Assembly (NCBI GenBank): GCA_021083345.1
Contig: JAJGRE010000004.1
Location: 186,001 to 250,000 of the forward strand
Source of the DNA: Calditrichales bacterium MX18-03
GTDB taxonomy: Bacteria > Bacillota > Clostridia > Lutisporales > Lutisporaceae
DNA length: 64,000 bases
Direction: 5' to 3'
Positions 12,842 through 40,200 of the stretch are shown one piece after another (position 1 is the first letter of the stretch; every line of letters begins with the position of its first letter). The notes under the pieces are model-generated. The model saw nothing but the letters and a program-made list of their open reading frames with translations, was not told the DNA's origin and made no database searches. The position numbers and the translations under genes were made by a program.

Positions 12842-12886
12842 TGGTGTGCCCGAAAGGATTCGAACCTTCGACCTTCTGATTCGTAG
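12842..12886 (-). repeat. Attachment-site copy (3' part of tRNA-Arg)
   Basis: These 45 bases are identical to the 3' part of the tRNA-Arg(ACG) gene at 25029-25073, from the anticodon loop through the CCA end, in the same orientation. Beyond the anticodon the sequence diverges at once, so this is not a tRNA gene. It is the distal attachment site made by integration into the tRNA 3' end. Confidence 0.9.
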
Positions 12887-24598: not shown

Positions 24599-24958
24599 AT
24601 GTTCTCAGATAGGCTTCGGAAATTACGAGAAGAAAAGGGAATCACTCAATTTGATATGGCAAAAGCGATAAATATCAGCAGAACATCTTTAAGCAGCTAC
24701 GAACTAGGAGTAAGAACTCCGGATATTGATGTGCTCGAAAGAATAGCTAATTTTTTTAATGTCTCATCTGATTATTTATTGGGAAGAGAAAATGAGATAA
24801 TCCATATTGATTCGCAGGCCGCTGAAATTGACATCACAAAAGCATGTCAAATTGTTGATACTTCAGGACTACCTGAAGAAGCCATTAAGCAAATTGAGGA
24901 CTATATTGAGCTGCTGAAAATGAGATATCAGCCAGGACGAACAACGAGGAAAAAATAG
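24599..24958 (+). CDS. CI-like XRE repressor of the element
   Basis: 119 residues, ATG with GAGGAG eight bases upstream. N-terminal XRE domain RLRKLREEKGITQFDMAKAINISRTSLSSYELG..FNVSSDYLLG, then an acidic linker and a C-terminal helix (LPEEAIKQIEDYIELLKMRYQ) typical of small Firmicute phage repressors that dimerise through this helix. No peptidase domain, so induction would not be by RecA-driven self-cleavage. It is the only rightward gene of the replication module and faces the three operators. Confidence 0.85.
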   Translation: MFSDRLRKLREEKGITQFDMAKAINISRTSLSSYELGVRTPDIDVLERIANFFNVSSDYLLGRENEIIHIDSQAAEIDITKACQIVDTSGLPEEAIKQIEDYIELLKMRYQPGRTTRKK

Positions 24959-24974
24959 CTCAAAAAAACAACAA

Positions 24975-25013
24975 AAAACACGTTTGTTAGCATTATGTTA
25001 GCAAACGTGTTTT
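24975..25013. terminator. Bidirectional terminator of the repressor and of tRNA-Arg
   Basis: Twelve-base perfect stem AAAACACGTTTG/CAAACGTGTTTT around a 15-base loop. On the minus strand it is followed by a long T-rich run, so it can replace the tRNA terminator that was displaced when the element inserted. Two TGTTAGCA octamers lie within it, which is also a candidate arm-type site. Confidence 0.75.
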
Positions 25014-25028
25014 ACAATTCGGTTAAAG

Positions 25029-25073
25029 TGGTGTGCCCGAAAGGATTCGAACCTTCGACCTTCTGATTCGTAG
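25029..25073 (-). repeat. Attachment site in the intact tRNA-Arg gene
   Basis: 45 bp identical to 12842-12886 and in the same orientation. It covers the tRNA from the anticodon loop through CCA. Confidence 0.9.
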
Positions 25074-25105
25074 TCAGACACTCTATCCAACTGAGCTACG
25101 GGCAC
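25029..25105 (-). tRNA. tRNA-Arg (anticodon ACG)
   Basis: On the minus strand a full cloverleaf folds: acceptor GTGCCCG/CGGGCAC, D-arm GCTC..GAGT, anticodon stem TCTGA/TCAGA with loop CTACGAA (anticodon ACG), T-arm with GTTCGAATC, discriminator A and encoded CCA. ACG is deaminated to ICG in bacteria and reads CGU, CGC and CGA. It is the integration target of the element and remains complete. Confidence 0.95.
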
Positions 25106-25184
25106 ATATGAGGCCATTGCCTATTTGAAGTACATTACTCATTATAATCAACATTTTTCGAGAAGTCAATGTATAAATTATGCT

Positions 25185-25478
25185 TTACAAAAGAAGCATG
25201 ATGCCATCAACAGCCAGATCCTTGACCCATAAAAACTTTCGCATGAAAATGCGGATGCCGTTGGGATGGACTTTGACGCGTTTGGACAGATAGACGTCGA
25301 TACCGTCAACCACATACAGGTCGAACTGATCGCCACGTGTAGGCTTACCCAACTGAACTGTTGGGGTCTTGACCGCGCATCAGCCGCCTCCGGAGGCTGC
25401 CAGATAAAGCGATACTGCTTTTGAGCTTGTCTTTTTCAAAATATAGGCTGCTGCATCCTGATCGATTCGTATCTCCAT
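25185..25478 (-). CDS. CC/Se-motif selenoprotein candidate (TGA read as Sec33)
   Basis: ATG with GGAGGG six bases upstream. After 32 codons (MEIRIDQDAAAYILKKT...LAASGGG) there is a TGA (25380-25382). The same frame then continues as CAVKTPTVQLGKPTRGDQF, YVVDGIDVYLSKRVK and so on, with a good C-terminal domain, to a TAA. The total is 97 residues. The SGGG-U-C arrangement is that of CC/Se-motif small (seleno)proteins of Clostridia, distantly HesB-like, which have Cys-Cys or Sec-Cys at this place. A hairpin fitting a bacterial SECIS follows the TGA. If Sec is not inserted, the product would be a 32-residue peptide. The recoding is inferred; the open frame, ribosome binding site and hairpin are seen. 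Confidence 0.75.
25348..25379 (-). promoter_or_regulatory. Candidate bacterial SECIS element
   Basis: Immediately after the TGA the mRNA can form a perfect six-pair stem CCCAAC/GUUGGG with a six-base apical loop AGUUCA. The loop begins 20 nt after the UGA, and G is its second base. Both fit the published bacterial SECIS rule (loop 16-37 nt from UGA, G in the first two loop positions). Confidence 0.6.
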
Positions 25479-25530
25479 TTCAATCCCTCCCATATGTACA
25501 TTATAACCTGTTTGTCAGAAAAAAAGCCAT

Positions 25531-25563
25531 AAAAAATAGACTTGCGGTACAAGCCTATTTTTT
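25531..25563 (-). terminator. Terminator of the ECF operon
   Basis: Stem AAAAAATAG-CTTG/CAAG-CTATTTTTT with one mismatch and a CGGTA loop, T-rich on both strands. It stands just after the zinc-ribbon membrane gene and before the selenoprotein gene. Confidence 0.7.
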
Positions 25564-25571
25564 AACATATA

Positions 25572-26288
25572 TTATCCTTCTATTGTGGTCTCGGCACTGA
25601 CCTCCAGCGGACCTTCAAACTGGCTGCCAACCTCGGTATCGGACGATTCCGATTCTGCATTTTTCTTTGACCGCCTTAGAATCCCCACACCAATCAGAAT
25701 CAGCATCAACGGTACGATGCTTCTCTTTACAGACCAGAAAAAGTTGGAAAAGCGCTCTCCGAAAAATTGCACTATGTTGTAGTGTTCCCAGGCATTTGTG
25801 AGTCCAATGATCCCCAAGACCAGCATGCCTGCACCAAAGTATTTCCTGTAGCCGAAAACCAGGCTGTAATCATATACAAGTGTATCTTCTACGAACTCGC
25901 CATTCCGGAGTTTTCTGCGAATATAATAGCTGTCAAAGAAGTTGAAGAACCAGGTAGGTATGATGATAAGCGGAATCAGCGCTTCGATGTTGACATAGCT
26001 GACAACAACGATGGCGGCAATGGTCGTAAACATGAGCTGAAAGCCTCTTCTAAACAGGTTCATGTACATGTAGGCCGCTCCCGGCATCAAAGCGAAACAG
26101 AAAAATGCAAAGCTTTCGAGGAATCCGCCCCGGCTGGGCTGATCCGGGCTTGCAAAAAGGGTCTGCTGGACACACCGGTTGCACACCCTTTTTCCCAGGA
26201 CCTCCGACGTACATTCCTCACACACCGGTTGTTTGCATTTCTCACATATATACTTGGCTTCCGCTTCCTTGTGGTATTTGCAATTCAT
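25572..26288 (-). CDS. B-box-type zinc-ribbon membrane protein
   Basis: 238 residues from the ATG of MNCKYHKE, which has GGAGG upstream. The N-terminus is a zinc-binding B-box-like segment with paired cysteines and a histidine (CKYHKEAEAKYICEKC, VCEEC, VCNRC). Four hydrophobic segments follow. The C-terminal tail is acidic (ESESSDTEVGS). It begins right after the anti-sigma gene, so it belongs to the ECF operon. Such proteins are common beside ECF sigma genes in Clostridia; their function is unknown. Confidence 0.7.
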   Translation of the reverse strand: MNCKYHKEAEAKYICEKCKQPVCEECTSEVLGKRVCNRCVQQTLFASPDQPSRGGFLESFAFFCFALMPGAAYMYMNLFRRGFQLMFTTIAAIVVVSYVNIEALIPLIIIPTWFFNFFDSYYIRRKLRNGEFVEDTLVYDYSLVFGYRKYFGAGMLVLGIIGLTNAWEHYNIVQFFGERFSNFFWSVKRSIVPLMLILIGVGILRRSKKNAESESSDTEVGSQFEGPLEVSAETTIEG

Positions 26289-37200: not shown

Positions 37201-40200
37201 CACTGGAAGCAGCCCTTCAGGGAAGCCTACAAGGTCTTCCTGGACGCCTACCGGATCGGGCTGGAAACCGGTGATATCGAGTCGGCTTCCTATGCGTTGC
37301 ATAACCATTGTTCTACTTCCTTTCTTGCCGGTGAGCCGCTGAGCCGCCTGGAGCAAAAACTGACCGCCTCCAGCCAGACCATCTCTCGCTTGAAGCAAAG
37401 CGCACCCTTGTTCCTCAACGAGCTGTACCATCAGGCGGTCAAGAACCTTACCTTACCGGGGAGCAGCCCCTCCCGTCTTGTGGGGGACTCCTATGACGAA
37501 GACAAAATGCTGATACAGCACATGCAGGCCAATGATACCAACCTGCTGTTCAACCTCTATTTCAACAAGCTGATGCTGGGACTTATCATGGGTGAATGGG
37601 AAGAAGCCTACCAGTATGCAGCCGAGGCTGAGAAGCACCTGCACGGTGTTCTAGGCACCATTGCTTATCCGGTTTTCCATTTTTATAGTACTCTGGTGTG
37701 GACTGCTCGCTATACCGGTTCAGACAGTCAAAAAAGGCAGCAGCTTACCCGCAAGATAAAGAAAAATATCAAGCTGATGAAAAAATGGTCCTTTCATGCA
37801 CCGGATAATTTCCTGAATAAATACTATCTGATGCAGGCCGAGCTGAACCGGATCACAGACCGGGAGCTTGAGGCCATGGCTTATTACGACAAAGCAGTGG
37901 AAGCAGCAAGGCAGCAGGGTTTCGTTCAGGAAGAAGCTCTGGCCAATGAACTGGCCTCCCGCTTCTACTTTGACAGCAATAAAAACAAGGCAGCCAGAGC
38001 CTACCTTTGCGATGCCTACTTCTGCTACGGCAAATGGGGTGCTGCGGCAAAAACGCATATGATGGCACTCCAATACTCTGAAATCCTCAGCAGCGGCTTT
38101 GCAGCCGCACATGCCTCCTATACGGCAAGCAGCAGCGCTTCAGGGACTACCCCCAGTGCTTTGGACATTACCACTATCATCAAGGCCTCCCAGGCTATTT
38201 CCGGGGAAATCGAACTGGAACCGCTGGTGAAGAAACTGGTGGGTATCCTATTCGAAAACGCCGGTGCCCAGAAAGTTGTCCTGATCCTGAAGGGAGAAGC
38301 GGGATACCAGATTGAAGCGGAAGGCTTTGCGGAGGATAAAATCCGCATTGCCACCAAGCCGGTTCCCCTATACGGAAGCGGCAAGCTCCCGGAAAGCATC
38401 ATCAATTACGTGCTGCGGACAGGAGAAGCGGTGGTGCTTGATGATGCCTGCAAAGCGGATACCGATGCCGTCCGCTTCATTGGGGACCGGTATATTGAGG
38501 AATACAGGCCCCGTTCCATTTTGTGCCTCCCTATTATAAGCAAGGGAGATCTGGCAGGTATCGCCTATATGGAAAACAACAGCATTTCAGGCGCCTTTAC
38601 CACTGACCGGCTGGAGGTTCTGAATATTCTGGCAGCACAGCTTGCCATCTCCATGGAAAACGCCGCACTGTACAGGAACCTCAGGCTTTCAAAGGAAAAC
38701 CTGGAGGAACAGGTCTATGAGCGGACCCTGAAGCTGACGGATGCCAATAAGCGGCTGGAGCAAACCTCCGCCAACATCAAGAGCCTGTTGAACAACGCCG
38801 GTCAGGGCTTTCTGTCCTTTGACTTCCGGCTGCAGGTGGATAACGAATACAGCAGCGAGTGCAAGCGTGTTTTCCAGCGGGATATCGAGGGCGCCTATTT
38901 CCCTGAGCTTCTATTTTCCCATGATCCCGAGCAAAAGGACCTGTTGGAGCAGGTTTTGAAGCAGATCTTCATTGAGAAGGAACTCCTGCGGCGACATGTT
39001 TACCTGACGCTGCTCCCGGGTGAAGCGGTGGTCTCGGATCATTACCTGCAGGTGGATTATAAACTGTTGGACCAGATACAAGGCGCAGCATCCGACAAGA
39101 TCATGGTCATCCTTACAGATATCACCGGCAAGTATCAGCTGGAAAAGCGAATGGAAGAGGAGAAAAGCATCCTGAAAATGGTGGTAAAGGCTGTGGTCAG
39201 CTATAACGACCTGACTGAAACCATCAAGGACTATCAGCAGTTCTGCCTGCAAAAATCAAAGGAAATACTGGAAAGCAGCCTTTCGGTTGAAGAAAAGCTT
39301 TATGAGTTTTTCCGGAATGTCCATAATTTCAAGGGGAATTTCAGTCAGCTGGATATGTTCAATATCGTTGAACGGCTGCATCAGTTTGAAACGGCACTCA
39401 GTGTATTCAAGGACAAGACCCCGCAGCTCTCACTGGAGGACCTCAAACGCTTTTTAGATGCATACGGCATGGCCGACTGGCTGGAGACAGACCTGCGCAT
39501 TCTGAAGGAGATCCTGGGTGAGCGATTCTTCCTCAGCGAGAATACACGCTATGTGGACACTGCCAAGCTGATGGAAATCGAGAAAAAGATGGCCGCCATC
39601 CTGTCGCCTATCGAATGCGGCATCCTGCTGCCTCAGCTCCGGGCTTTACGGCACAAGCCCTTCAAAGAGCTGCTCAGCAGCTACCCTGAGTATGTGGCAC
39701 GGCTTTCGGAGCGGCTGGAAAAGCCCCTTACTCCCATGGTTATTGATGGCGGCGACTTTCTGGTTGATACCGATAAATACGCTGCCTTCACTCGGACACT
39801 GGTCCATGTTTTCAGGAATGCTCTGGATCATGGCATCGAAACGCCGGATGATCGCTTCATGGCCGGAAAAAGCGAGAATGCAACCGTCAGCTGCAGCATC
39901 AGTCTTGAAGGCGGGCAGCTGCGTATTAAGATAGCCGATGACGGGAGAGGCGTTGATATTGAGCGTATCCGCAGGATCGCCGCTGATAAGGGGATGTTGT
40001 CGGAAACGGGCATAGAAAACTCCCAGGATTCGGAGCTGCTTCAGTTGATCTTCAGAGATGAGTTGACAACCCGCACGTCGGTCAGCGAGCTGTCCGGGCG
40101 GGGCATAGGTCTTTCGGCTGTAAAAAAGGAACTGGACGCTCTGGGCGGAACGGTGACGGTGACAACGGCAGCCTATAAAGGTACAAGCTTTGATTTCTTC

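Follow-up and report, generated by a model that had tools for sequence, protein, structure and literature searches.

Small bacterial proteins that carry selenocysteine (Sec) or cysteine in a Cys-type motif are collected in the NCBIfam family NF041239, "CC/Se motif family (seleno)protein" (Moor_selen_rel). A 2026 review lists this family with the motif CxxU, one Sec and a hypothetical protein predicted in Moorella thermoacetica (PMC13188914), while the main texts of the two papers that it cites for the Moorella protein (PMC2398784 and PMC5029168) contain no mention of Moorella. For the HesB-like selenoprotein family TIGR01911 the review gives the motif UxGP (PMC13188914), differing from the U-C pair of the protein described here. 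Two consecutive Sec residues were reported as a first in 2020 for the algal PDI_e, with the motif GUGUU (PMC7539508).

Here we describe a gene on the minus strand of a 64-kb stretch of bacterial DNA (the window, meaning the whole stretch that was analysed) that, judged by its sequence and its relatives, is a real selenoprotein gene and a new member of a known, little-studied family, its function being predicted only. Since the product matches NF041239 and the review lists that family, the family itself was already known.

A minus-strand gene with an in-frame UGA

The gene runs from an ATG at 25478 to a TAA ending at 25185 (minus strand, 25478..25185) and consists, in order, of GGAGGG, six bases, ATG, 32 codons, TGA, 64 codons and TAA (Table 1). 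A first-pass annotation had given the coordinates 25185–25478, which proved correct, but had left the minus strand unstated; reading the interval on the plus strand was rejected as meaningless. The strong ribosome site, the 32 and 64 codons and the SGGG-TGA-TGC context that it had described are all read in the minus-strand sequence, where codon 33 stands in GGC-TGA-TGC (SGGG-U-C). With the TGA read as Sec (U), the product has 97 residues, MEIRIDQDAAAYILKKTSSKAVSLYLAASGGGUCAVKTPTVQLGKPTRGDQFDLYVVDGIDVYLSKRVKVHPNGIRIFMRKFLWVKDLAVDGIMLLL, with a predicted Sec33-Cys34 pair and Cys or Sec at residues 33 and 34 only. Because no table-11 ORF of at least 60 aa overlaps the gene on either strand, plain gene calling would not detect it, in line with the earlier claim about automated callers. 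The combination of a strong ribosome site, at least 20 codons, a TGA and at least 50 more codons occurs twice in the window, the second time at 37356 on the minus strand.

Table 1. Features at and around the selenoprotein gene (window coordinates).
Feature	Position	Strand	Basis
Selenoprotein gene, 97 codons + TAA; predicted Sec33-Cys34	25185..25478	(-)	Reading frame, NF041239 match, homologues
UGA codon 33, predicted to be read as Sec	25380..25382	(-)	TGA in 10/10 orthologues of the codon table; homologue alignment
Putative bacterial SECIS hairpin CCCAAC-AGUUCA-GUUGGG, loop start +21 after UGA	25348..25365	(-)	Folding, comparison, published limits
Ribosome-binding site GGAGGG, six bases before ATG	25485..25490	(-)	Direct reading
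Possible -10 box TATAAT; no promoter-like pair listed there	25500..25505	(-)	Direct reading
Terminator-like hairpin between upstream gene and selenoprotein gene	25530..25564	(-)	Consensus match only
tRNA-Arg(ACG), downstream neighbour, outside the selenoprotein gene; own promoter-like site 25169-25141	25029..25105	(-)	

The match to NF041239 covers residues 1–92 with 76.5 bits against a cut-off of 40, bearing out the CC/Se-motif family guessed at first. Like the family, the window protein is small and has its Sec in a Cys-type motif; the motif given in the review is CxxU, whereas the window protein has U-C (GGGUC), and CxxU is present in relatives such as L041. Against TIGR01911, no match to the window protein was listed up to E 10, a search in which the HMMER filters drop most weak matches; a relative with two UGAs (L053) gave a weak match (E 0.014). 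TIGR01911 and the window protein presumably go back to a common HesB-type ancestor.

Three further relatives lie in the same genome, namely L016 with a C-U motif, L018 with GUGCGG and L055 with TGATGA. L018 (G000:C7:1089354-1089665) and L079 represent one type of paralogue, marked by the motif GUG(S)CG and by an insertion; in the best hairpin of L018 the loop starts at +16. Scanning contigs with the single protein as query returned no relative, and the same scan with the alignment A1 as query returned 11 loci.

Conservation of UGA33 and of the reading frame

The protein query matched 13 of 41 genomes at E ≤0.001, a count that includes the genome of the window. Among these 13 same-family genomes with the gene, 12 have TGA at codon 33, and the remaining one (G002, locus L009) has TGC TGC, encoding Cys-Cys. 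Genome G011 holds a second copy with TGA, cut by a contig end (L015), and G001 a second, Cys-Cys relative without TGA (L017); Lutispora thermophila DSM 19022 is a same-family relative with an orthologue (L155). A sequencing error, the objection that the first-pass annotation had raised against itself, is practically excluded by this recurrence of the TGA.

With alignment A1 as query, matches were obtained in 37 of 391 genomes of the class. At the column of the window's Sec, 46 of 74 aligned homologues have Sec, 27 have Cys and one has Thr; this set is part of all relatives found (75 rows minus L080, whose frame is lost), and 19 new places (L157–L175) were taken into it from the 76 listed in one search. 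The sole Thr (L045) is the residue immediately ahead of a TGA and represents an alignment slip, leaving Sec or Cys as had been anticipated.

For the codon comparison we used ten equal-length orthologues with the U-C motif, leaving out L009, L013, L014 and L015. All ten have TGA at codon 33, and dN/dS was below 1 in every computable pair, ranging from 0.06 to 0.93 before the TGA and from 0.04 to 0.56 after it, with dS saturated in many pairs.

A SECIS hairpin at fixed distance from the UGA

The hairpin claimed at the outset, with its loop 20 nt after the UGA and G at loop position 2, was found as described: 25365–25360 pairs with 25353–25348 (six pairs) around the loop AGUUCA (25359–25354), whose second base is G and whose first base is +21 after the UGA, with 20 nt between. 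Published limits for bacterial SECIS elements (bSECIS) are a spacing of 16–37 nt, a loop of 3–9 nt, a stem of 4–16 bp, a G at loop position 1 or 2 and an MFE ≤ −7.5 kcal/mol (PMC13188914). The window hairpin lies within all of them, including the spacing to which the first-pass annotation had appealed, and the 44-nt fold amounts to −11.8 kcal/mol. This energy is not unusual when compared with shuffled sequences (z −0.8 and −0.9; an equally stable fold arises in 38 and 36 of 200 shuffles), and an Rfam scan of 24900–25700 returned a tRNA and weak, probably chance matches with no SECIS family. The support for a SECIS is therefore comparative.

We lined up the rows ungapped from the UGA, taking the second UGA where there are two. 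Over all 39 TGA-bearing rows, ten of which have two TGAs, 185 of 234 cells at the six stem positions are paired (79%), compared to 24–54% when the stem is shifted by −10 to +12 (22 positions) and to a mean of 60% and a maximum of 67% in 2000 runs with shuffled 3′ letters. This is the figure to use; a value of 83% refers to 36 rows, from which L018, L079 and L045 had been dropped for not fitting. The 29 single-UGA rows alone show 76% pairing (shifted 26–50%; best shuffle 66%). All six pairs are present at the fixed place in only 18 of the 39 rows, the hairpin being shifted or weak in some relatives; in 37 rows the first or second loop base is G. In 15 Cys-bearing relatives 39% or 46% of the cells are paired, depending on the anchoring Cys, with six pairs in L009 only and five in L115.

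The stem sequences themselves vary (CCCAAC/GUUGGG, GCCAUU/AAUGGC, UCCAAG/CUUGGG). In L015 two pairs are changed on both sides, C-G to U-A and A-U to G-C, where by our own reading the 3′ arm carries the synonymous changes CAG-CAA and TTG-CTG. Since nine of the ten codon-compared genes encode TVQL at this place, part of the hairpin conservation is protein conservation. At the level of codons, GTT41 is identical in 10/10 and ACA40, CAG42 and TTG43 each in 9/10, L012 differing; by contrast, Leu88 and Val90 use three codons each among the same genes. Judged from the pairing over all TGA-bearing rows, set against shifted stems and Cys-bearing relatives, covariation maintains the hairpin at its fixed spacing from the UGA.

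The Cys-Cys orthologue L009 (G002:C17) retains the six stem pairs around the loop AAUCCU, which has lost the G, a pattern that a recent switch from Sec to Cys would be expected to leave, and this hairpin looks like a fossil SECIS after such a switch. Its Cys-Cys motif is also what could suggest that the window gene is dead, having once encoded Cys-Cys and then acquired the TGA as a stop mutation. The chance of this is practically nil, as nearly every same-family genome that has the gene shares the TGA, purifying selection acts on the codons after it, and the Cys form, with its six pairs and its loop without G, looks derived.

Selenocysteine machinery

The window's genome (4.69 Mb, 15 contigs) contains all of selA, selB, selD and selC (the tRNA-Sec gene), whose presence the first-pass annotation had proposed as a check. 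We found selA at E 5.1e-164, the C-terminal domain of SelB within a frame of 701 codons at E 3.7e-15 and selD at E 9.7e-117, together on one contig (C7). The selD gene (L028, G000:C7:1184060-1184980) has an in-frame TGA, so SelD is probably also a selenoprotein. The tRNA-Sec model scored 70 bits at its best place and 49.1 bits, against a cut-off of 47, at a second one; it is a loose model, matching in 14 of 14 control genomes and above the cut-off in five. The identity is settled by ARAGORN, which reads the best place as tRNA-Sec with anticodon TCA.

In the proposed sequence of events, the ribosome would start at 25478; the hairpin, its stem starting 14 nt after UGA33, would hold SelB and its Sec-tRNA(Sec), which would insert selenocysteine at this codon; and translation would stop at the TAA at 25185. 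From the conserved frame, the conserved UGA, the covarying SECIS and the complete Sec machinery, we infer that Sec is almost certainly inserted at UGA33 in vivo. Readthrough of another kind, with Trp or a near-cognate tRNA decoding the UGA, is highly improbable given this machinery and the covarying hairpin; moreover, the alternative residue among the 74 aligned homologues is Cys and never Trp.

Predicted fold and possible function

The AlphaFold2 model, built from the window protein and 11 relatives, has a mean pLDDT of 88 and a pTM of 0.77. Its least confident part is the active loop (residues 31–40, pLDDT 75), and Sec33-Cys34 is placed in the loop between the strands 21–29 and 36–43. The ten best Foldseek matches are SufA, IscA and their kin (best E 3.1e-3, none ≤0.001), and VIA-align superimposes the model on IscA (1r94) with Z 9.3 and an rmsd of 2.8 over 87 aligned residues at 15% identity; all ten VIA-align entries shown are of what we take to be the IscA/HesB group. 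The predicted fold is thus that of IscA/SufA/HesB, as a single beta domain.

This predicted fold is common to the window protein and the A-type carriers IscA and SufA. In IscA, the C-terminal Cys pair provides the cluster ligands. The window protein, having no Cys or Sec besides residues 33 and 34, lacks that pair. It could nevertheless be a reduced A-type carrier, in which an Fe-S cluster or sulfur is held or handed on across a dimer interface and Sec replaces the first Cys of IscA. The best fold matches and a weak match to Pfam Fe-S_biosyn (PF01521) over residues 1–37 point this way, whereas the score of the latter (19.8 bits) falls below the gathering cut-off of 26.3 and Sec33 could not be mapped residue by residue onto an IscA Cys, a PDB sequence search with A1 having returned only 2qgo (E 1) and an unrelated protein (E 0.012). 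Together with the missing Cys pair, this makes such a carrier distinctly doubtful.

A thiol-selenol redox protein, in which Sec33 and Cys34 (in relatives, the Sec and its displaced partner) form a selenenylsulfide and shuttle electrons, would fit the expectation that most uncharacterised selenoproteins have redox roles, deemed likely in the review (PMC13188914). By our own reading a partner Cys near the Sec is indeed common in the family, though at −3, −2, −1 or +1. The model, however, is IscA/HesB-like rather than thioredoxin-like, no redox neighbour is recognised at the locus, and the ring formed by a vicinal Sec-Cys pair is strained, so that we regard this role as unlikely, if worth keeping in mind.

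The reading to which we lean, with limited confidence, is that the Sec-Cys pair may bind a soft metal(loid), a persulfide or a selenide, or hand it on; the former Fe-S site would then have shrunk to a single selenol-thiol site. A hint towards a soft metal(loid) comes from members of a sister clade in ars clusters; at the window locus, no ars, redox or Fe-S neighbours were recognised, and the surroundings of the gene point to no particular function.

A sister clade with two adjacent UGAs

This clade, which is the part that a specialist would find surprising, has two adjacent in-frame TGAs in the motif GUUMAFEAPSGLMG. One member lies in the window's genome, outside the window (L055, G000:C10:20277-20555, minus strand); others are L137–L144 and L176–L188. 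A profile made from seven double-TGA members, blind to Sec or Cys, was searched in class and phylum samples and gave 17 places at E ≤1e-17 (eight plus nine more), with the next ones at 1e-10, and two TGAs are present in 17 of 17. Adding four more places gives 21 in 19 genomes, where the TGAs are adjacent in every case; since these had been picked for two TGAs, this latter count speaks for adjacency only and 17/17 is the fair count. At +21 after the second UGA, a hairpin with five of five pairs is present in all 19 rows compared, which leave out L187 and L188 as a divergent type, and G is at loop position 2 in 18.

Beside eight of the 21 double-TGA places we found ArsR and the arsenite exporter ACR3 (in two pieces at L140), with ArsD and ArsA in addition at five of the eight and a phosphoesterase at five; these genes were identified by Pfam in the window's genome and by BLAST in the others. 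At the other 13 places BLAST found no ars genes in regions of ~8–12 kb, and the notion that the clade is always an ars protein was rejected on this account. Seven of those 13 (L178–L184) have in common a tungsten-enzyme-like cluster, whose neighbours, as named from reading their sequences, are a large enzyme similar to aldehyde:ferredoxin oxidoreductase, a ferredoxin and a small protein of ThiS/MoaD type. In the window's genome ArsA appears as two overlapping ORFs of ~300 aa, each with an ArsA_ATPase domain (L137:6177-7947, minus strand), and in four relatives as one ORF of ~580 aa.

The NF041239 cut-off was passed by five of the 12 clade members scanned and missed by seven, so NCBI may already file some of them under this family. 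Table 1 of bacterial selenoproteins in the review contains no Sec-Sec motif (PMC13188914), and we found no bacterial Sec-Sec protein in the literature searched; papers dedicated to selenoprotein families could hold one. A link between selenium and arsenic handling has precedents, since arsenite methyltransferase and arsenate reductase are listed among selenoproteins (PMC13188914). The algal PDI_e shares with the clade the two consecutive Sec residues, predicted in the case of the clade, but it is a eukaryotic protein of the PDI type, whereas the clade is bacterial and HesB-like and has a single conserved hairpin shortly behind its UGA pair.

Sec geometry across the family

By ungapped counting and our own reading, the Sec precedes the Pro of LGKP (or the equivalent of this motif) by 13 residues and has its SECIS loop at about +21. 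The partner, again by our own reading, is at +1 in the window gene (U-C), at −1 in L016, L043 and the double-UGA clade, at −2 in L013 and at −3 in L041. The clade's equivalent of UGA33 is the second UGA by ungapped LGKP counting and SECIS spacing and the first by MAFFT, which places some gaps differently.

The gene itself enlarges a family of predicted proteins by one well-supported member that plain ORF calling would not see. Its relatives matter more, as they suggest a fixed Sec and a wandering partner on a HesB fold. We tentatively picture the CC/Se family as a HesB-fold selenol scaffold with a fixed Sec and a moving partner, which may have become Sec itself in a widespread clade (two UGAs, one hairpin, Sec-Sec) that was partly recruited to ars clusters. 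On this picture, a bacterial arsenic protein with a diselenol site would have the window gene as its sister, one that has a single Sec and binds a soft metal(loid). The clade makes two questions testable: can one bacterial SECIS decode two adjacent UGAs, and does a vicinal selenol pair serve in arsenic handling?

Genomic neighbourhood

The upstream membrane-protein gene has a homologue in six of the 12 regions compared, the window included, and the two genes before it, an anti-sigma and a sigma factor by our own sequence reading, in five of 12; the tRNA-Arg(ACG) recurs in five of 11 relatives' regions. Several of these regions are cut by contig ends. The terminator-like hairpin at 25530..25564 suggests a separate transcript for the selenoprotein gene, and co-transcription with the upstream gene or the tRNA-Arg is opposed by this hairpin and the separate promoter-like site of the tRNA, both of which are consensus matches only.

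From its sequence context, the selenoprotein gene looks like a case of old vertical inheritance, beside and not in a neighbouring mobile element. A plasmid search gave no match. The 3′ end of the tRNA-Arg is repeated as a 21-base exact direct repeat at 12846–12866 and 25033–25053 of the window, with none expected by chance. The two copies bracket ~12.2 kb. Of the six proteins scanned there, five have matches in phage families (repressors, DnaC-like loader, replisome organizer), and this stretch is probably an integrated element attached at the tRNA-Arg that adjoins the selenoprotein gene.
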